Source: Chytridium lagenaria (Eukaryota > Chytridiomycota > Chytridiomycetes > Chytridiales > Chytridiaceae). From it: a stretch of 64,000 nt of DNA. The notes under the pieces were generated by a model that saw nothing but the letters and a program-made list of their open reading frames with translations, ran no database searches and was not told the origin of the DNA. The position numbers and the translations under genes were made by a program. Below, piece by piece: positions 2,715 to 58,817 of this stretch (positions are counted from its first letter, which is position 1; every line of letters starts with the position of its first letter). Location of the stretch: positions 124,001 to 188,000 of the forward strand of contig JAHLKC010000004.1 of NCBI GenBank assembly GCA_025449115.1, written 5' to 3'.

Positions 2715-4077
2715 ATGCATCGCATGCGAACAATCACCTCACGGCTGGAGGCTGGACGCGGGAACGTTTGCAAGCTATCCCGGAGCTACGCTTACACTAC
2801 CGCCAATTCCCTCCCTGCTTCTTCAAAACCCTTCTCCACCACCTCAACCATCGAAAAGGAAGACCTTGCCAAGCTATCCACCTTCTCCGCTCGATCCGGC
2901 CTCGCTCTGTCCCAGCCCACTCTCATTGAAGCCTTGACGCATCGCTCGTACAAGGACTCACTTACGCATATTCAAAGTGATCGATACCAGGTGTTGGGTG
3001 AGGATGGTCCCCAACCCCTTTCCTGCTAAAACCAAAACTACAGGTGAACGAGTCTTGACATTTTTCGTCACCGAATACCTTTTCGCAAAGTACCCAACAC
3101 TTCCTGCACATGCGCTTGCGAGCTCTTCAGAGGCCTTTGCGGGACCTTATACTCTTGCGAACGTTGGGAGAAATATTGGGTTGCCCTTTGTAATGAGATC
3201 TGGGGTGTGTATTCTCCCTTGATATTTTTGATGTCTAGCAACGGTATTAATTGGGGTATCTCCTAAATAATGTAGATGCCTGCGACCGAGAAGGATAGGG
3301 AAAGTCTCATTCTTTCGAAAATCGTTCACGCTCTTATTGGTGCGCTTTACACTGAAAAGGTTGATACTCTCTTACCTTATTTTCCATTCATTGGCTGGTG
3401 TTCGCTTAATCATCCCTATTTGTTTTGCTGTCGTAGGGCTCTAAAGCGGCAAAGGAGTTTGTTAAGGCCCATATCCTTTCTAGACAGATTGATGTGTACT
3501 TCACTTGAAGTTAAGCAACCCCAAAGCTCTCCTTCAGAGTATTTTGAAGACCGCCCAAAAGCCTCGACCCGTTTCAAGGTATATTTTTTTTGCTTTGTTT
3601 TTGGCTTCCGTGTTTTTTCTATATAGGCTGACTTTTTTTTTAGGCTATTGAAGGAAACTGGCCGTCTATCGTCTACCCCGTATTTATTGTTGGAATTTAC
3701 TCTGGCGTCGAGAAAATTGGAGAGGGTACGTCATTAATTCGGCGTGCTTTTGTCTTTTCTGATATCTTTTCTTTACCCTTATCTAATATTCGACCTTTTT
3801 CTAGGTTTCGGCAGCTCTTGGCTATGGCCGAGACAAGGGTAGGCTCTCTCATTAACTATTCAAAATATCTAACTAGCAATCAAAGGCTTCTAGAAACGCA
3901 ATAGAAAAGCATTTCCTTTCGGAAGTCAAGGATGCTGCGGTCCCATCGGATGAGGTCGTGAATGGTGATGACCTTGTATTTCAGAGAATGTACAAGATCT
4001 CAACAACAAATAAATCATCTGGTGAACAAATAAAGATCAAACATCAAACAATGAAATCCAGTGAAACCGGAACGTAA
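2715..4077 (+). CDS. MRPL3: Mitochondrial large-subunit ribosomal protein mL44 (RNase III-like)
   Basis: Mitoribosomal protein of the mL44/MRPL3 family, which has an inactive RNase III fold followed by a double-stranded-RNA-binding domain. The N terminus is rich in Arg/Ser/Thr, like a mitochondrial presequence. The RNase III part includes LIEALTHRSYKDS, then ERVLTFFVTEYLFAKYPTLP and ESLILSKIVHALIGALY. The C-terminal part includes SNPKALLQSILK, LLKETGRLSSTP, VFIVGIYSGVEKIGEGFGSS and LAMAETR. Introns include 2998-3043, 3205-3275, 3360-3436 and two or three later ones. The conserved protein can only be read with three one-base shifts, near 3503-3510, 3676-3679 and 3815-3819, each at a short T or C run. 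I read this as consensus error rather than a pseudogene, because the protein is otherwise well conserved. It converges with the B56 gene. Confidence 0.85.
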
Positions 4078-4286
4078 GTAACCCCACAAAACACAAAAAA
4101 AAAAATGTAGAAGAAAAAAGAACAAAATGTGCCCACAAATCCTCTCAATCAACAATGCTTGCTACGTGCATACAAAGGTTCGTCTTCTGAAGTTTCACGG
4201 TTTTCCCTTTTTATAATGGTATCTAATGTCGGCCTACCCCGCCCGTGTTGAAATTGTCTTTTCGGTATTAGGGTGAAGTCACAAGA

Positions 4287-7119
4287 TCAGCGTTCTCGGC
4301 TTCGGCGCGCTTCTTCTGGATAAATAAGTTAGTATGATACCATCAAAACAGGTCATTCACGCACCGTCAAGAGATTCCTCAAGAGATTTATGCGGACAGT
4401 TCGGATAAGACTTGCTCATCCACAGGCAATACTGATTTTCTGCGGAAACGTTGAGGAGTAGTCGGTCCTCGAATTGCGTCTAGAAGAAAAAGAAAGAAAA
4501 AATGGTTGTGTCAAAACGGTTTGAAAGCACATTTAAAGCTTACAAGTTCCTTTGTGAGGGTATCGTCTTCAGGAGCATCTGCCTTGGCTTGGTCGTCGCT
4601 CCTTGATCCACGGGGTCCGCAGCGACTGTGCAAAAACGAGTCAACGATATAAATAATTTTACGATTTGCCTCACCTGGTGCCGCGACAGGTGTATGAGAC
4701 ACGGGTCGAGCAGGACGGGCCGTACCAGAAGCAGGAAGATGAAGCTTCGCAGCGTTGGATGCTGCCTGTGTCTCCAGCTTGGTCCACATCTCTTCCCTAT
4801 CTTTTTGCTTCTTTCTCTCACTGTAAATGTATCAAGACAAGCGTTTACGCAATAAAACGAAAACAAAGAAAGAACGCAAGAAAGAAAGAAAACTCACAGC
4901 TGCCGATTCTGCTTGTACTTGTTTGTGCACTCATCGAAAAGCTTTGGACTAATTTCCATAAACAGTTTCAAAGCATTGTACACAAGCCCATGGATGGTCC
5001 TGACCAAAATAGATAAGACAAAGGACTGAAAGCAGAAGTCGAAAAGATGAAATGTACCTGTTCCAGTGTGTCTTAGAGTTCCGGTACAGACTGGAAAACA
5101 TAATAGGAAGGATAACGCTAGCGTTGTCTCCGATCAAATTAATAATGTAGTCGTTGTTCCAGTAGTAAAGAGCCCTCTCGGCAACCTTAAAAGAGAAGTT
5201 TAGACCAAAATTCCGAAACCTTCTGCCAAAAAAACAATACCTGGAAATGTGGTGAAGAAACGCATCTAGCAATTTGCTGGAAAAGTGCGACCTGAATCTT
5301 CACGAACTCCTGCGGTTCGATGACATCCAGTATTTCTTCAACCTCATTTAAAAACATGACTTCCTTAGGACTATTGACTTTCGGCCAGTAGCGGAGTAGG
5401 CCACAAACCACCTGCATAAAGGGGGCATCAGTAATTGTAAGAAATAGATATTGAACGACCTCCTCTGTTAGCCCTGGATCTTTTTCGAGAAACTGGACCA
5501 CGCAGTAGGCTAGCTGCGGGTGGTACAACGTTAACGACTTGGCTTTGTGGAGAGGGATGAGCACGCGGGTCAAGAACACTTTATGCTCCTCTTTCAGCGG
5601 CAAGGCGAAACCGTTAATGATACTTCAATCAAAGACAAGGTTATTACAAAATCAGGGCAGTGATAAAGCATCAAATAAACCAGTCTTAAATCCTTCCATA
5701 TTTATCTTTCCTACCTTCCAAGAATTTCGAGCAGCTCGGCAACTCCATTATGACGCTCGTTTTCGTAGATAAATTGGAAAAACACGTTGTTGATCGATCT
5801 ACGGATGAACGCGCGGAGGTTGAGGAATTTTCCGTAAATGCGGTGAAGAGTAGTTTTGAGGAAGTCGCGCTCACGGGGGTCTTCGCTGTCGAAAAGTTCG
5901 AGAAGCTACGGGGAAGGAGCGTAAGGCAGGAGAGTTATGTCAATCAGCGATGAGATGTGGCCGTTAAAATAAATTTCGCTTCAAAATCCAACGAAAGGAT
6001 CAAAAAAAACTCCTTACTTGAAGTATAAAGTGCTGGTCAATATATTTCTTTGCAATGTTCGTGTTGAAGTCGGGGGATTCGATAAAACGCAGGAAAAATT
6101 CATAAACGATCTGAAGGTGAGGCCAAGCTTGTTCCAAAACAGGTTCGTCTTCCTCCGGGTCGAATGCATCCCCTGTGGGGTTCACCTGAGGGGGGATTGT
6201 TCTGAACAAGTTGGTTGAAAACTACATAAGCAGATTAACGACCCTGGGGTAAAAATAGACAGGTTCCAACCATTCCAATAACTTCCGGGTAGATGGGTTC
6301 TGTGATCACACCCCTGTTGTTGGTGATGTACTCCACGAGCTCCGTGAGGGTTTGCCGTTTAATCTCCTTCCCCTTCAGATCCGACAGCGCATCATTAAAA
6401 TCAAAGATAACACTACATTGACCAATCTTCTTCAAAAAGAGATCCTGCCTTTCCGAAGCACCAACATCTACAAATCACAATTCGTGAAGAAAACAGGGAA
6501 AATGGGCTTAACACAAAAAGCTTTAAAACACTGAGGACTTCTCACCTTTAAAGCTGACCAATTTCTCAAGCTCCACTCTTTCAGTCACATGGAACCGAGA
6601 TGACCTCTGACGACGAGGGGTTTTACTGATAGGGATGGCATCCTTTGGAGAGTTTTTAATCCTGTTCAAGGCACCACTCTTTGGAACTTCACGACTCGTT
6701 TCCGCCGCGGGTTTGTGGGAGGCCGCGCCTCCGGCCACCTTCAGCATATCTTTAGGCATCTATAAAATAGATCAGCCTTTAAAACTCGGGTAAAGCAAGT
6801 ACAGCCGTCTGCAGTCCAGCGTTTGAAGGTACCGAGTCAGATCTAGAATTCTCCTCCTTTTTCGTTCCAGGCTTTGTTAAGTTGTCCTTTGGTTTTGACG
6901 GCGGCGACCTATCTGCTTTAGGTTGTTGAGACGGAGATGGGGCTGCTGCTATCTTGTTTGACGAAGTAGCTAAGATTCCTGTCAGCTGAAAGAAGGCGCA
7001 CTGAGAAACACTCACTGTCGGGGGCGGGAGACTTATTTCTCGACAACTGTAAATTTCGATGAATGCACTGATGCAGGGAACGATTGAGAACTTACGACGC
7101 GGTTTTTCAACCCTTTCAT
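4287..7119 (-). CDS. PP2A regulatory subunit B56 (Rts1/Par1 type)
   Basis: Targeting subunit of protein phosphatase 2A. The start at 7119 reads MKGLKNRV, similar to the N terminus of fungal Rts1/Par1. A Ser/Pro/Lys-rich low-complexity segment follows (exons near 7015-6779 and 6759-6540). The conserved junction is [37 protein letters not shown]. The HEAT-like core includes [66 protein letters not shown] and [14 protein letters not shown]. Many short introns interrupt it. The core ends near [11 protein letters not shown] (about 4790). What follows is uncertain: one frame stops at 4540, while another runs through a GTAAGC donor into exons ending at 4287 that encode a Cys-containing tail ([20 protein letters not shown]). 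That tail may be a genuine extension or a separate small gene. Same strand as MCM5, 290 bp downstream of it. Confidence 0.88.
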
Positions 7120-7409
7120 TTCGGGCCGTAAGGGCAATGAGGTTGATCCGATACAGCCACCGTGGAAAAAACGAGTATCCTTTCTCAACAAGTTTGGATC
7201 ACTCTTTCACCTGATCAAAAGCTAGAGAGAATACTCCACAGATAGTTTTAGATGAGACACCGTGACGTAAGGCCAAACGATCAATGCTCCTAGGCCGAAC
7301 GCGGTGACTCCCACAAATCTGTTTCAAGACGATCAGTCGTCCTTCTTCTGGGCAAGACGGAGGACAAATTATTGTTGGGGTTTATTCAAATTTTTCACGT
7401 CTTCAACTT

Positions 7410-41979: not shown

Positions 41980-42122
41980 TGTGATCTTCTCTTGACCCAT
42001 CCCTCCTGCTTAGCTTCGACTAGGGGGTAGGGGAGAAGAGTGAAGGAGTTTGTGATCTTCTCTTGACCCATCCCTCCCTACCTAGCTTCGACTAGGGGGT
42101 AGGGGAGAAGAGTAAAGGAGTT
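41980..42122. repeat. Tandem duplication, two units of about 71 bp
   Basis: Two adjacent near-identical units begin GTGATCTTCTCTTGACCCAT (about 41980 and 42051). Each contains an inverted pair: GACCCATCCCTCC... against ...GGGGTAGGGGAGAAG, with CTTCGACTAGGGGGTAGGGG in both. They differ by a few bases and a short indel. Confidence 0.8.
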
Positions 42123-42480
42123 GCTCCAGCAGAGCAAGTCCACAGAGCACCTAGGGACAGGATGTACTCCTGAATCTAAGTGATGTTGTTGTTGTTTGGC
42201 GATGGTGTGGCTGAGTGATCGCGAGATTCTGCTTATTTAAGGGAGAAGGGAACGTGTTTAGTATCTTCATTGTCGACTTACCTTGCTGCTAAACCAATAT
42301 CAGCACCAGATCGTCTCCAGGCGATCGGGGATGGCTATAAGTCTCCATGCCACCCTACTATGGCACCTTTTGGAACATGGGCTCTCGTTTGCCTCTCAGA
42401 GCTTAGAACAGGGTAACCTCACTCATTGCCTGCCGTTAGCGCCTGATCATCGGGTCGGAGAGCACCAGAGGTGGAATGTA

Positions 42481-42971
42481 GCTGACCAAGCCTTGACTAA
42501 AGGACACTGTGAATGAGGAGGGATTCCATCACAGCCTTCTGTCTCAAACGGCCGGATTGCAGCTTCACCAGGTGGTAAGGGGGCAGAGGGGTCGACTGTC
42601 ATCCAACTAAGAGTGAAGGGGAGATCACGCCGTGAGGCCACGCGCGTGGTGATAGAGGATAGGGGATCAACTCAATATCAACTACTTAATTCAACAAGGT
42701 ACAAATTAAATCAAGAAATCTCTCATATTAAAGTAATACACAAAATACAAATAAATAACAGACACAACATATGCACACACACATAAACGGCACATATGCG
42801 CGCCACCTCCTTCAATAAAAACCCTATAAACGTGGGAAAAAAGTATATATTAAAAACCCAAAGGGAAAAGAAGGGAGGATTCAATATGACGCGGGATACA
42901 ACGGAACTCAACGGACTTATACAAAATGTCCTTATGAGCCATAAGCCATGTGAATAATGTAATTCTTCACA
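42481..42971 (-). repeat. Left terminal direct repeat (LTR-D, 3' copy)
   Basis: About 85-90% similar by eye to 47228-47735 over its full length. Shared blocks include GGCCACGCGCGTG, CTCAATATCAACTACTTAAT and ACAAAATGTCCTTA. It ends TCTTCACA at 42971. Confidence 0.8.
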
Positions 42972-43089
42972 TTCTCCTGTTTTTAAGAAAAGACTTACGT
43001 AGAAAAAGTCAAACTTAGTTGTCAGAAGTATAAGAACTATCTGTAAATATACCAGAGCTTGCATTATGAGCAAGTCTATAAGGCCAAGT

Positions 43090-44567
43090 ATTGGCAAGAG
43101 TTATAGAATTGTTACCGTCTAGCATTTCTATAGCTAAAGGTACTTCAAGTTATTATCAGGTAATCATTATCCAGATTATTATCAATATCAGGTTCCGACT
43201 GAGGAACTTCAATTTCAATAGCATTCTGGTCATCAGAATCTATAGGCGCTGCCTGCCGTAAAGAACGTTTTACCCTGCACTTCTATTATTTGCAGAAGGC
43301 CTGGGGTTGTTTGGGGCTTTGTGCAGCGTCCCTTGATCAGGTAGGTCAAGTGCTGGCAAAAAGATCATGTTATCATAATTGTTATGGTGAGCATCACTGT
43401 ACTCTAAAACCAATTCAACTATCTCATGGTCAGTCAGTGACGCCAAGAAATGGTGGTTGACATTCCATTTGCAAGGAATTTGTTTATCTACAAAGGCGTA
43501 GTCTATTCTCCAAACAGCTTTATAGAACTCTGTTGGATCATGCCAAGTATATCCTGGCGTATGCGGATGGCTATGACGAAATCCATCCTTAAAACCTAAG
43601 TTAATGAATGAGCTAAGCCAGTAGCGTTCATCATTGCGGAATCCAGAGTGTCCGTAGAATCTGGATGGTTCTCAAACATCAATTGCTTTGTGAGCAATGT
43701 TGAAATCTCCTACAACAATTGTATTTGACTGAGCTTTGAGACTCTTTACAAAAGTGTGCAGTTGTTCAAGGAACTTCATTTTGTATTCCTGTCTGTGATC
43801 ATGCCTTGTGCCATTTGGCGCATAGACATTCACTATATTCATACCTAAAAGGCAGAGTGTAAGGCACCGTTCTTCTTCAACAAAGTCGTGAAAGTCAGTG
43901 CGCATCATATGAGTCCCACATATTACTGAAAGTACGGGATATCTTCGCGGACCATGGTCATAACACCATTGTGTCCATTTCTTTTGTCGTCAGCATACAT
44001 CTTCCATCCACGGACGGAGTTCAGTTGTTGCCAAAACTTCTCATGACCATGGCCGACCATAGTCTCTTGGAAGCAGGCGATGTCACATTCCATTTCATCC
44101 AAATATTCAGCAAAGAACTCTGCTCTATTGGATTCATCACCTTCAATTCTCTTTGCAAAATGCTTCTTAACAAGAGCTTGAAGGCTGTTTGCAGTCCATC
44201 TTATAATCTTGTGGAATGGTGTGCGTATAATATAAGTGGGATATAACTTTTTCATTGACTCTGGTGGAAAGTCATGGATCATACGAGAAGGAACATCTGG
44301 CAGAGCCGTTGTTCTCTCAACGCCATATATCTCGCGTAGAGATAGGGGTGATTCTGCAGTAGTTCTCTTTTCATTGAGGGGTGAGAAGAGCTCGCGTATC
44401 TCAAGTATCTCGTAAGCGTAAAAACCACTTAGAGATTTTGGACCAGTGTCAGGCACTGGGTAGTTTACAGCATCTGGTGGTAAACCAGCATTAACTGTTA
44501 TGACATGGGTAATCTGTCCAGGTATGTGCCTAGGTGCGCGAGAGGAGTTGACCTCAGGATCAGGCAC
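43090..44567 (-). pseudogene. ExoIII-type AP endonuclease/exonuclease, lightly broken
   Basis: Endonuclease/exonuclease/phosphatase fold of the ExoIII/APE1 type, which nicks DNA at abasic sites. A roughly 110-residue N-terminal extension precedes the domain. Core motifs in order are KIIRWTANSLQALV, DIACFQETMVGHG (catalytic Glu), MNIVNVYAPNGTRHDHRQEY, NTIVVGDFNIAHKAID (Asp/Asn, about 43697), GHSGFRNDERYWLSSFINLG, FKDGFRHSHPHTPGYTW, FYKAVWRIDYAFVDK and LTDHEIVELVLEYS (Asp-His). The frame is broken near 43920 and by one in-frame TGA at 43672-43674. The catalytic residues are all retained, so decay is recent or partly due to sequence error. The HSHPHTPGYTW and WRIDYAF blocks are typical of stand-alone ExoIII, not of LINE endonucleases. 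No introns. It lies inside element D. Confidence 0.75.
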
Positions 44568-45541
44568 CTGGCAAATCCAGAATCGGGTAGTTCCTGTGAA
44601 CTCCCGTTTTTGATATTCGAATAGTCTGCGTCTCTCCTAACAAAGACATTATCAATGAGCTGTTCAGGGAAGATAGCTTCGCTGGAAAGCAATGGTCGAT
44701 CAGATACAAACTCCCGTTTTTGAGAAGGAGAAAAGACATGGGCGGGTGGGTGGGTATAAGCAATGTGTTAGCATACGTTGCGTTGAGGTTGGAAGCCACA
44801 AATGGTCAACATCGTCGAGATAAGGCGTCATTCGGGACGAGCGACTGCTATCGGTCATCTGGACATCCAGAGATGAGGATTGTTTTAAGCCAAGCGGCGT
44901 TGAGACAGTAAACAACAGGTAGAAACGTGTTAAGATGCGTCAGTTTATTGAGAGAATCAAAAGGACCCATGCAGAAACGTGTCCTAGTGAAACTACTCAA
45001 CTTTTATAACAGATCTATCTCCGTATTAAGAGCAAAGTTGCGACAAAGGACCGTTGTAAGTGGACAAAGTGTTGTGGAGGTGTTTTTCATTAGGGCTGCC
45101 GTGAAGAAGAAGCGTCGAATGGGTTGTGTCCAGGTTTTCACAAGGGAACGGGGTTGTTGTGGATATACACCACGTAATATTATATTGCATCTACATAGGC
45201 GACTTGAAGCCCATGGATGCGGTAAGAGCAAAGGGAATCTCCTAATAGGGAAATTTGCCCTTGCAAGTTTATGAAAACGTTAACGGGTAGTTAACGTCTG
45301 CATGGTTGTATCATCGAGTTTTGGAGGGGGAGATGGATTGCGCCAAGTGGCGTGGTTGTCTCCCGACTCTAGCACTCATAGTGTATTTTTGAAGTTGATA
45401 AATTTCGTCTTCAGAATATTGATACCATACACGACGTAGGTAACAAGAGGAAGAAATCTATTATTTCTAATTATGTTCTATCACTACAGAGGGGAGAAAG
45501 AACTAAGGTAAGAGGAATGGTTCCATCATTACATTGCTCAG
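44568..45541. other. Internal region of element D without a recognisable domain
   Basis: Short overlapping frames on both strands; none has conserved motifs. An 18-bp exact repeat, ACAAACTCCCGTTTTTGA against the similar ACTCCCGTTTTTGATATT (44600 and 44706), suggests a small internal duplication. Confidence 0.4.
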
Positions 45542-47261
45542 TTAAGAGGTGGCATCAAGGACACGGTCCCAAAGAGTAGGAGAAGGTGAGCAGGGTGGAG
45601 TTGATGAGGGAATAACAGAATCATCAACTTCAATCAGCTCACCATCATTAACAGAGTTTGGCTCATCAACACCGACGGGGAGAGCCGTGCGGGGGATAGC
45701 CGCTGCCGGGTCCGCAGAGGAAGCGTTGGAACCCATGGTGAGTACTTTAGATGCATGACCATCAACTAAAGGAGTATTCTTTCCCACATCAGCGTCAACA
45801 CTCCTGAAAAGGGGGGAGAGGAGGTCTGCTGGAAGGGGTGGAAGAGCCAGAACGAAGCTCACGGTACTGAAGAAGGGTGAGCTTCTTAGCGATTCCTTCA
45901 ACATCCGACGTCAGATGCTTTGTGTTTGCTAACCCATAGACTCTAGGCGTGGCAATGGATGACGGGGTGTTCTACGGCGAGAAGCAAGAGCAACTGGAGC
46001 CACCTGACGGGGGTCGGTGTGGTCATCGTCATCACTGGCAGAGCCCACAGAGGAAGTGGTGGTGTCCGTAAGAGAATCACCATCAACCGAGGAGAGGCTG
46101 GTAAGTGGGAGTTGTTCCTTCCCAACGTTGTTGAGGGGATGGTTCAGGGGAAGACGGACCTGACTTCTCTGTTTCAGCAGAGCCCGAGGAGCTGGTACTG
46201 AAGGGACCAAAGGGACCGGAGGAGGTGCAGGGGGCGAGGATGGATGCTGACGTGAGGTGAGTCGATCACGCATCTCTTTCACCTTCATCTGACTGTTCAC
46301 CAAGCAGCTGGTGAGGTCGTGCCGTACAGCTACAAGTGCTGCATTGGTGTATTCTGTCACAGCGTCGAGCTGGCGGATATTGAAAGCACCACAGTCCATG
46401 AGCATAGCAAGTTCGTTGGTAGAGTCGACTAACATGTCTCGAACTCCATTAATTGTTTTGTATAGGCGCTTGCGACGTTCATCCACAAGAGAGGAGTCTC
46501 TCGTTACGGTAAGCAACGTTACTTTTGAGTCGTCCCTCATTAACAGTAACTTCAACACCTAGGTCTCCAAGGCGCTGAACAAGATGGAAGACCAGGTTGA
46601 TGTTGTAGCGGTTGCTACCAAGTGTCCGCTCGGTTTTGGGGTTGCTGTTGGAGTGGGAGCGGCCATGCTCGGCGTCATCAGCAGGATTGAAGCATGCTGG
46701 TGGAGTAAGTGGTGCAGGAGGTACACGACGGCGCCTAGTGATGAGTATGCGGGGGTCAAGGGAGCCCTCAGCACGCTGGCGGATGGCTTGGTCGCGATGA
46801 ACCCTAAGCAATTCTTCAAAGGAGGTGGGATCCTTGAATTTGGGGAACAGGAAGACCTCGTCCCATTCGATTACATCAGGTAAGGGTTCTTTCCCTTTGT
46901 TCGACAAATGCTCAGAGGAGGCGGGTTCAAAGCCTGCCCTGAGTTTGCAGAGGTTGGAGGTGTGTTCACCGTCTGAAAAGACATGAACTACTTCATCATC
47001 CTCATCCATTGGGTCGTCGTGTGAAGACTCCCAAGTCCGACGATGGCAGCGAGGATTGCGAGATGAAGATGCCTGGTGAGAAAGGCGGTCATCATCCTTG
47101 CTAACACCACCAGGGCGGTGAGAGTCAGAGGAGGCAACGACAGTCTTCTTGGCGACTGGGGCCTCTCTAGAGGGAGGAGGGTGACGATTTGACAAAGCTG
47201 AGGAGCCCTGAGGGTCGGAAAGGACTAGCCGACCAAAGCCTAAGCTAAAGGACACTGACAA
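45542..47261 (-). pseudogene. Unrecognised protein in the gag position of element D
   Basis: Three consecutive minus-strand frames (47261-46479, 46558-45929 and 45904-45542) read as one protein of about 570 residues if two shifts are corrected. The N-terminal part is rich in Ser/Pro/Asp. The middle has a charged helical block beginning DPTSFEELLRVHRDQAIRQR, and then RRKRLYKTINGVRDMLVDST and QLDAVTEYTNAALVAVRHDL, which look like coiled coil. The C-terminal part is Pro/Ser-rich. No zinc knuckle (CCHC), protease or polymerase motif is visible. Position and composition suggest a gag-like structural protein, but I cannot assign it to a family. Confidence 0.45.
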
Positions 47262-47735
47262 TGAGGAGGACCCTTAGGCTGCCATCGCAGCCTTCTGCTT
47301 CAAACAGCTGGATTGCGGCTTCACCAGGTGGCAGGGGGTAGAGGGGTGGGCTGCCATCCAAGAAGGAGTGAAGGGAGATCACGGCGAGGCCACGCGCGTG
47401 AGATAGAGGATGGATAATCAACTCAATATCAACTACTTAATTCAACAGGTACAAATTAAATCAAAAAATCTCTCATATTAAAGTAATAAAATAAAAAAAA
47501 AATAGACACAACATATGCACACACACATAAACAGCACATATGCACGCACCTTCTTCAATAAAACTCTTTAAATGTGGGGAAAAGGTATATATATAGAAAA
47601 CCCAGAGGGAAAAGAAGGGGAGGATCAATATGACATGTAAATGTACGCGTCAACGTGGGATATAATGGAACTGAATGGACTTAGACAAAATGTCCTTACG
47701 AGCCATAGGCCATGTGAATAATGTAGTTCTTCACA
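47228..47735 (-). repeat. Right terminal direct repeat (LTR-D, 5' copy)
   Basis: Partner of 42481-42971. On the minus strand it starts TGTGAAGAACTACATTATTC and contains a TATATATACC box (about 47587-47596), suitable for a promoter. The primer-binding site after its 3' end could not be identified. The TGGTAGCACTTCTC site used by the copia elements is absent. Confidence 0.75.
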
Positions 47736-57134: not shown

Positions 57135-58414
57135 AGCGTTGGAACGGCAGAGTCAGGAACAAAGCTCGACGCGACAGGGATGGGGGATGCAGAACTGGAG
57201 GTGATGGTGAATGGGGAACCGTCAACAATCATCTTGAGGAACGTTCTGTATGTGCCCGGCATTAAGAGGAACTTGGTGTCGCTTGGGATGGCCAGTGGAA
57301 AGGGTCTTGAGGCGCATCCTGTTAAGGGCGGTTACATTCTCAAGTCAGCAAAAGGAGTTGGGGTTGCAGAATTCAAGAAGGATGGATCCAACCTATATTA
57401 CCTGACGGAGGGAACCCTGAGGGAAACCATACGACTACGGGGGTTAAGAGCTCGGCTCTGAATGACGTTTACACGTGGCACTGTCGAATGGGTCATTTAG
57501 GAATGAAGAACGTCAAAACTTTGCCAATGGTGGCAAAGGGAGTCAAGGTGGTTGGAACCGACTCGGATGTTCTGTGTGAGGGGTGTCTGGATGGGAAACT
57601 CACCAGGGCGTCGTTTCCGTCAAAGGAGAAGAGATCAAAGAAGCCCTTGGAGAGGGTTCACGTTGATCTTGCTGGACCTATGTCAACAAAATCGATTGGA
57701 GGGGCTCAGTACTATTTGGTGGCGGTAGACTCAATGTCTGGATACACGATGACGTACCTGCTCAAGGAGAAGTCGCAAGCTGTCAAGTACATCAAGCTGT
57801 TCAAAGAAGAAGCGGAGCGACTTACTGGTGGGAGAATCACAAGTATCGATTACTGTGAGAACTCGAAGAAGCTTGAAGAGGCCGTACTCTCGCAGGAGCC
57901 TGACAGGCTCAGAGAGATTGTAGCTGATAACGGTGGGGAGTTTAAGAACAAGGATCTTCAGGAGTGGTGTTTAGCGAAGGGGATCACGCTCACCTACACC
58001 ATGCCGTATTCGCCAGAGCAAAATGGAATTGCAGAACGAATGAATCGGACTCTCATGGAGAAGGCAAAATCCATGTTGAGTCATTCTGGCCTGCCTATGA
58101 AGTTCTGGGGAGAGGCAGTGATGACGGCTACATACCTCGTTAATCGCTCACCGAGGAAGTCGAATCCAGACTCGATAACGCCTTATGAAGTCTTCACGGG
58201 AAAGAAACCGCACCTTGATCTCGTTAGAATTTTTGGATGTGCGTCCTACATGCACGTGCCAAAGCAGCAGAGGAAGAAGGGACAGTACAACGCGAAGAAA
58301 GGCGTCTTTGTGGGTTATGAGCCTTTGGGCTTTCGGGTGTATGATCCAGTAGGGAAACGCGTGATGAGGAGCAAGTCTGTGATTTTTGACGAGACAAAAC
58401 TCGGACTTGACTAC
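57135..58414 (+). pseudogene. Element C pol: protease end, pre-integrase and integrase
   Basis: Plus-strand copia polyprotein fragment. It opens inside the protease/pre-integrase region (ELEVMVNGEPSTIILRNVLY, VPGIKRNLVSLGMA), then after one shift at about 57460 continues CRMGHLGMKNVKTLPMVAKG and CEGCLDGKLTRASFP. Integrase shows RVHVDLAGPMSTKSIGGAQY, VADNGGEFKNKDLQEWCLAK, MPYSPEQNGIAERMNRTLME, FTGKKPHLDLVRIFGCASYM and VIFDETKLGLDY. The frame from 57488 to the break is open for more than 300 codons with all three catalytic acidic residues. LTR-B of element B2 cuts it at 58415. Confidence 0.88.
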
Positions 58415-58817
58415 TGTAGGGGTTACGGGGCTCAATTGTAATTTAAATATAATGAATTAATAAAGAGAATTATAGTATAAAATGGTGATGGAGTCTCCAG
58501 CGGTGACAGGGAGGTAATTACTACGAAACTTCTATATATTAATGTTAACTACTTTACGCAATACATGTAGAGGGTGGGGATTTACATCAGAACTCATGAT
58601 CCGTAAATCCCTCCAATTACGTATCATAAACTAAACACGAAATAATAAAGTTTAGGGATTAACGCATCCTCAAATGGAATGAGGAGCTCAATAAAAAATT
58701 CATCAAGTCAAAACTTAAAATAACGCGTACATAAATAAAGTTCGGGGGAAAAATAACTTAGACAAAATAACGAATGTGGGTGAGTAAAACAAAATAGAAA
58801 GATGAATAAACCCAACA
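58415..58817 (-). repeat. LTR-B, 3' LTR of element B2
   Basis: About 403 bp, same family and orientation as the two LTRs of B1, with more base differences. Followed by TTCTCCCCCTCAGC, the complement of the polypurine tract. Confidence 0.9.

Follow-up and report, generated by a model that had tools for sequence, protein, structure and literature searches.

A 64,000-nucleotide stretch of the genome (41.9 Mb, 356 contigs) of the chytrid fungus Chytridium lagenaria, at positions 124001-188000 of contig C4 and called here the window, contains on its minus strand an element with long terminal repeats (LTRs) that carries an exonuclease III (ExoIII)-type apurinic/apyrimidinic (AP) endonuclease domain. 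Aligned with more complete relatives elsewhere in this genome, it looks like a deletion derivative of a Ty3/Gypsy element that bears such a nuclease in its polyprotein, Pol. The copy and match counts given for this genome are lower bounds throughout. The 3' LTR of the element (42051-42971) is complete, with a length of 921 bp and the ends TGTGATC...TCACA; its borders were set by the LTR pairs of full copies on C131 and C15, which are 98.2% and 99.4% alike, respectively. It is followed, all on the minus strand, by a 3' internal stretch common to autonomous copies (42972-43282), by the ExoIII part of pol together with the spacer that precedes the ExoIII (43283-44765), by the gag-position region of a non-autonomous form (44766-47225), with open reading frames (ORFs) at 45929-46558 and 46479-47261, and by a truncated 5' LTR (47226-47735). 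The outer edge of the complete LTR is duplicated at 42005-42122, as a 46-bp repeat of 93% identity, 72 bp apart.

An earlier note on this DNA described two LTRs of about 500 bp. The direct repeats are real, lie about 4.75 kb apart and are 81.5% identical between 42479-42971 and 47226-47735, but the left end assigned at that time falls inside the LTR, and the right repeat comprises no more than the outermost 510 bp of an LTR from another subfamily. Both the length and the right boundary were overturned by the LTR pairs and by copies that continue past 47225. Two LTR subfamilies, A and B, can be told apart, and the window repeats fall in different ones: the left LTR is 91-97% identical to subfamily A and 85-87% to subfamily B, and the right repeat is 90-92% identical to subfamily B and 82-85% to subfamily A. 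The interior is severed at 47225/47226, where all seven other copies compared (over 1500 bp in six and 580 bp in one) continue in sequence that they share with one another. No target-site duplication was seen in the flanks of the window copy. Given the cut interior, the LTRs of different subfamilies and the flanks without a duplication, the window copy is truncated and probably recombinant.

The ExoIII domain of the window copy (43375-44249) is broken into two frames, at 43375-43941 with one TGA and at 43887-44249 with one TGA and one TAA. The best single-frame piece matches PF14529 at 3.5e-5 and PF03372 at 7.7e-4, both below the cut-offs. The earlier claim of an ExoIII that keeps its catalytic motifs holds for the presence of the domain but not for its integrity, given the in-frame stops and a first catalytic Asn block that reads WTAN rather than WNVN. 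The same note had reported a gag-position protein and the lack of reverse transcriptase (RT) and integrase (IN), and both statements agree with the present results: neither enzyme was found in the window copy, and the ORF at 46479-47261, which starts inside the right repeat, aligns with the gag-position ORF of the autonomous L044 at 42% identity over 45 amino acids (E 2e-10). By this alignment it is a diverged relative of that ORF; the region gave no Pfam match. Positions 1-969 of the relative L041 align with window 42339-43282, and positions 3576-5102 then align with 43283-44765 at 90.6% identity. Relative to L041, about 2.6 kb, comprising the integrase and the next ORF, is absent from the window at junction 43282/43283. 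The window element has its LTR, 3' end and ExoIII part in common with L041, and lacks the integrase and the RT.

The longer RT-encoding relatives proposed as a check were found, and they are Ty3/Gypsy elements. Their Pol has the order RT, RNase H, ExoIII, H2C2 zinc-binding domain and integrase core (rve), followed by a weak chromodomain-like match. The clearest case, L046, encodes the whole order in one natural frame, 2573 amino acids long, with RVT_1 at 581-739, RNase H at 831-930, ExoIII at 1336-1613 (TIGR00633, 5.1e-37), H2C2 at 1744-1803, rve at 1819-1915 and the chromodomain-like match at 2443-2487. L047 has a similar natural frame of 1604 amino acids, with the chromodomain-like match in another frame. 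In L041, a natural frame of 1133 amino acids runs from the last part of RNase H through a spacer and a complete ExoIII to the integrase, and the RT lies in a separate frame upstream; L039 and L040 likewise have RT and RNase H upstream of the ExoIII and integrase downstream. The H2C2 (PF17921) and rve (PF00665) matches are above cut-off in L041, L046 and L047. A match to Asp_protease_2 in the autonomous relatives (21.9 bits) is below its cut-off of 24.3, and no Pfam gag match was found in those of their frames that were tested. The LTR ends are of the TG...CA type. A primer-binding site (PBS) motif is present at the inner LTR edge in L044, and in all at ten loci that represent seven places by their coordinates, on C131, C76, C15, C259, C39, C20 and C3, with that on C76 in an autonomous copy. 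The layout of ExoIII, H2C2 and rve also occurs in three metagenomic proteins, P0122-P0124, among the best 120 of 189 matches of an integrase search, one of them with an RNase H in front. A protein search with the ExoIII region found only P0001, from Chytridium lagenaria, and missed P0122-P0124, such that a lack of matches there counts for little.

Genome-wide counts show the same arrangement. Profile searches gave 82 matches to RNase H (PF17917), 84 to H2C2 (PF17921) and 117 to ExoIII (TIGR00633), 28 of the last over cut-off. When RNase H and H2C2 matches within 6 kb of each other were paired, 30 of the 59 pairs enclosed an ExoIII, with gaps of 1222-2545 bp between RNase H and H2C2. The 30 loci are partly non-independent, and C11 and C137 look like duplicates. 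The gaps in the ExoIII-free pairs are 199-505 bp in 28 of 29 and 5927 bp in the other, which is probably a chance pairing. From the ExoIII side, 48 of 77 merged loci have an H2C2 match 280-587 bp downstream; among the remaining 29 are fragments, loci at contig ends and non-autonomous copies. Several observations weigh against the general picture. The matches to the chromodomain PF00385 reach 20.7, 18.7 and 14.4 bits (4e-4, 0.0016 and 0.037) against a cut-off of 25.1, many copies, the window one included, have broken frames, and 29 of the 59 pairs lack an ExoIII; therefore, Gypsy elements need no ExoIII in general. It is nonetheless practically certain that, in a group of Ty3/Gypsy elements of this genome, Pol includes an AP endonuclease of the ExoIII type placed after RNase H and before integrase. 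An assembly artefact is ruled out by the 30 loci, although not all are independent, and by a strong codon-position bias, with 201, 149 and 1160 ExoIII differences at the first, second and third codon positions.

The window copy is not the only shortened form. Full non-autonomous copies of about 7 kb, L043 on C131 and L045 on C15, which supplied the LTR pairs mentioned above, keep the gag-position region and the ExoIII and have no RT or integrase match. No match to RNase H or H2C2 was found within 4 kb of the ExoIII at C4, C131:34422 or C15. L014 and L015 also lack the integrase, with their junction at L041 830/3555 rather than 969/3576 as in the window, and because the deletion junctions differ, the non-autonomous forms appear to have arisen or been rearranged more than once. 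The suggestion of a non-autonomous LTR element with a captured nuclease is thereby borne out, except that the nuclease is not peculiar to the form without RT and sits in a full Ty3/Gypsy pol. One non-autonomous copy has a 4-bp target-site duplication, TCGC on both sides of LTRs that are 99.4% alike. The LTR subfamilies do not match the interior types neatly: the non-autonomous L014 and L015 belong to subfamily B, and L003 belongs to subfamily A yet continues like the autonomous L041.

LTR copies with no ExoIII match nearby, which the earlier note had counted as a danger to the element idea along with a single-copy interior, are numerous, for example L004 and L006, with 3.5 kb of each covered. 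The idea survives because the interior is multicopy, with the ExoIII at a constant place. A 500-bp query from the left repeat gave at least 46 matches in the genome and an interior query at least 64, many of them limited to the ExoIII part. That a host repair gene happened to lie between two LTRs is ruled out by the multicopy interior and by the presence of the same domain in Pol of fuller elements. With respect to the LTRs themselves, at L010 (C259) two LTR copies, one per subfamily, lie near each other past the element's 3' end, at 5767-6270 and 6758-7266, and L011 and L004 show about 35 bp alike outside both LTRs of the C131 copy, far above the usual length of a target-site duplication.

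The nuclease resembles cellular repair enzymes. The earlier proposal of a cellular or viral ExoIII origin is upheld as to the cellular type, in that the TIGR00633 (xth) scores are 160 bits for L041, 128 for L046, 148 for L047 and 131, 116 and 110 for P0122, P0123 and P0124, against a cut-off of 99, and, among solved structures, archaeal and bacterial ExoIII come closest, followed by APE1. Close solved relatives include Mth212, titled a DNA uridine endonuclease in two entries. A captured endonuclease from a long interspersed nuclear element (LINE) is ruled out by these searches, with none so named among the 54 solved relatives listed; the trees described below held no LINE endonuclease. The predicted structure model has a mean predicted local distance difference test (pLDDT) score of 67.8, with residues 329-352 within the ExoIII largely below 50, and the matches listed for it span residues 219-520 only, with integrase and RNase H folds absent among them. 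The Asn, Glu, Tyr, Asp-x-Asn, Asp and Asp-His residues, which we take to be catalytic, are kept in all nine complete, uninterrupted ExoIII domains aligned (L041, L042, L046, L047, L053, L048, P0122, P0123 and P0124, with L041 and L042 from one family).

Selection on the domain was measured by the mean pairwise ratio of nonsynonymous to synonymous substitution (dN/dS), with gaps, stops and extra bases masked, such that frameshifts are not counted, and with copies missing more than 30% of a stretch left out. Among autonomous copies the ratio is 0.07 for ExoIII (14 copies, 91 pairs), 0.05 for RT (9 copies, 36 pairs) and 0.06 for integrase (13 copies, 78 pairs), and it is 0.20 and 0.17 in the stretches before and after the ExoIII. 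The ExoIII of autonomous copies is under strong purifying selection, as constrained as RT and integrase. The notion that a host nuclease gene was caught by chance and is useless to the element draws on the weaker constraint in non-autonomous copies (0.23; 10 copies, 45 pairs); it is contradicted by the dN/dS values of the autonomous copies and has against it the open frames of families that are only 43-57% alike in ExoIII, as well as the three metagenomic relatives, all of which makes it very improbable. The partial constraint in the 7-kb forms is itself odd, since those forms are without RT.

What the nuclease does for the element can be argued from these features. LTR retrotransposons enter DNA by integrase, and AP-type endonucleases mark LINEs, in which the AP-like endonuclease precedes RT and performs integration. 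The elements described here are not LINEs, since they have LTRs and an integrase and the nuclease follows RNase H. Integration should need no ExoIII, because LTR ends, a PBS motif, a 4-bp target-site duplication in one copy and a constrained integrase are in place. Since integration can be explained without it and the nearest relatives are stand-alone repair nucleases, care of the element cDNA, by repair or by 3'-end trimming, is the most economical role, and we hold it tentatively, at a little under even odds. The putative nuclease would be set free from Pol and packaged along with RT and integrase, where it could cut abasic, perhaps uracil, sites in the element's own cDNA, which RT would refill from the 3'-OH, and it might also, or instead, clean the cDNA 3' ends ahead of integration. 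The non-autonomous forms may be copied in trans, because they have LTR ends and the primer-binding site in common with an autonomous copy. The reading as a whole, with the window copy as a truncated non-autonomous relic of the ExoIII-in-Pol group and with a co-packaged nuclease that acts on cDNA, is put forward with the same reserve, as slightly short of probable.

Two other roles were weighed against cDNA care. ExoIII enzymes act as 3'-phosphatases and 3'-5' exonucleases and have RNase H activity, and the domain lies directly between RNase H and integrase, as might suit a maturation nuclease that removes primers in the manner of RNase H or trims cDNA 3' ends as an exonuclease, with no part in repair. 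Ordinary Gypsy elements in this genome, with 29 of the 59 pairs, manage without an ExoIII, and this role is rather doubtful. Alternatively, the ExoIII could nick the chromosome to supply a 3'-OH for LINE-like, target-primed entry, or could guide the element to lesions. LINEs nick their targets with an endonuclease from the same superfamily, and two DNA-cutting enzymes are kept here under equal constraint, but ordinary integration is accounted for by the LTRs, PBS, constrained integrase and short duplication, the last in the one copy checked, and the solved relatives listed hold no named LINE endonuclease, so that a nickase is unlikely, more so than a maturation nuclease. The preferred role in cDNA care would be comparable to that of the dUTPases of some retroviruses and LTR elements, and it makes testable the need for abasic or uracil repair of retroelement cDNA inside the particle, as dUTPases suggest. 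LTR elements that have an integrase and an equally conserved AP-type endonuclease also blur the division between LTR elements and LINEs.

The bearers of ExoIII appear from RT and IN trees to fall in two unrelated Gypsy lineages. Lineage I comprises the window family, L046, L047, L050, L053-L055 and P0122-P0124, of which each tree holds a part; in its ExoIII, the loop ahead of the WRIDY motif is shortened and additional residues lie close to the N terminus. Lineage II comprises L048, L049 and L051, in which ExoIII follows closely behind RNase H; within it, L048 against either L049 or L051 gives a dN of 0.22 and a dS of 1.6-1.7, near saturation. The trees were built from pieces over a set length and from part of the proteins listed, with 45 rows for RT without L058, 44 for RT with L058 and L057, 56 for ExoIII and 53 for IN; the RT tree with L058 left out the P0141-like long rows P0241, P0204 and P0171 and near-duplicate rows from the same genome. 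Lineage I is a single clade in RT with L058 and L057 (support 100/96), IN (95/91) and ExoIII (100/100), and its sister in the RT and IN trees is P0125, which has no ExoIII.

Because the RT and IN trees separate the bearers in this way, two captures of ExoIII at one Pol junction look likely; the ExoIII tree itself neither demonstrates nor contradicts them. A single capture, followed by recombination between the two lineages or by many losses, would account for the identical junction in both, and one clade is not rejected by the ExoIII tree (p 0.233) or by RT without L058 (p 0.38). The same clade fails the test in IN (p 5.8e-6) and in RT with L058 and L057 (p 0.012), lineage II groups with L058, an ExoIII-free element of the same genome, in RT (100/99) and IN (100/98), and the free ExoIII tree sets lineage II beside a cercozoan ExoIII (93/82) with lineage I apart (100/100). 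A single capture is given roughly one chance in three. Against two captures, it must be said that the outcome of the RT test hinges on sampling and that the trees carry a warning of long-branch attraction. The fullest form of the two-capture reading is that two Gypsy lineages independently built a repair nuclease into Pol at the junction of RNase H and integrase and came to depend on it, such that their particles would either carry a small cDNA repair kit, with RT and an AP or uridine endonuclease as its parts, or possess another route into the chromosome in addition to integrase; we give it an even chance. If there were two gains, the RNase H/integrase junction would be a docking place for new Pol functions, and the gain would answer a common need.

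No earlier report of an AP endonuclease in Pol of an LTR element was found, in a search whose coverage stopped short of Repbase and most subscription papers, and the novelty is therefore provisional. Such an arrangement is not reported in the accessible portions of PMC5348765, PMC3248453, PMC5408684, PMC6338049, PMC9926174 and PMC9289625, and the relevant terms do not occur in PMC2577118. In the portions seen, PMC9926174 names an apurinic endonuclease for LINEs, PMC3248453 refers to a supplementary figure with complex elements that have further domains, and a figure legend of PMC5348765 lists an AP-like endonuclease as EN, taken to mean non-LTR elements.

Compared with known systems, the elements resemble chromodomain-type Ty3/Gypsy elements (chromoviruses) in their LTRs, PBS, order of RT, RNase H, H2C2 and rve, and chromodomain-like match after the integrase (below cut-off as stated), and differ from them in the complete ExoIII inserted within a correspondingly wider RNase H-H2C2 gap. 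Like LINEs, they have in a retroelement an enzyme of the endonuclease/exonuclease/phosphatase superfamily, but here it follows RNase H, beside the integrase, in an element with LTRs. Unlike the stand-alone ExoIII/AP endonucleases Mth212, Mm3148, NApe and APE1, it is embedded in Pol. In lentiviral Pol, the dUTPase is likewise placed between RNase H and integrase. As extra enzymes of nucleic-acid quality in LTR retroelements, the two are alike, but dUTPase prevents the incorporation of uracil, and ExoIII/APE enzymes cut damaged DNA. According to the parts of each source available, dUTPase occurs in non-primate lentiviruses (PMC4261571) and in three LTR lineages of bdelloid rotifers (PMC5408684). 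Some bdelloid LTR elements have a DEDDy exonuclease, likewise a captured cellular-type nuclease and gained at least twice, but it is of another fold, is encoded by a separate ORF3 rather than as a Pol domain, and shows no significant departure from neutrality, in contrast to the strongly constrained ExoIII (PMC5408684, in the portion available). Archon and Chronos, as described in the available part of PMC5348765, are Ty3/Gypsy elements in which an enzyme domain was also added to Pol, independently in several groups, although theirs is a second, archaeal-type RNase H and not an AP endonuclease.

Some minor observations concern the window and other contigs. A plasmid search gave no match, and no tRNA gene was found in the window. 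The same two ExoIII fragments, 86% and 88% identical to L041, occur on C80, C114, C291 and C319 with equal scores, which suggests recent duplicates or assembly copies. Elsewhere in the window, a 317-amino acid ORF on the plus strand (57488-58441) contains a piece of a Copia-type integrase (SH3_retrovirus 2e-21, rve 8.5e-11).

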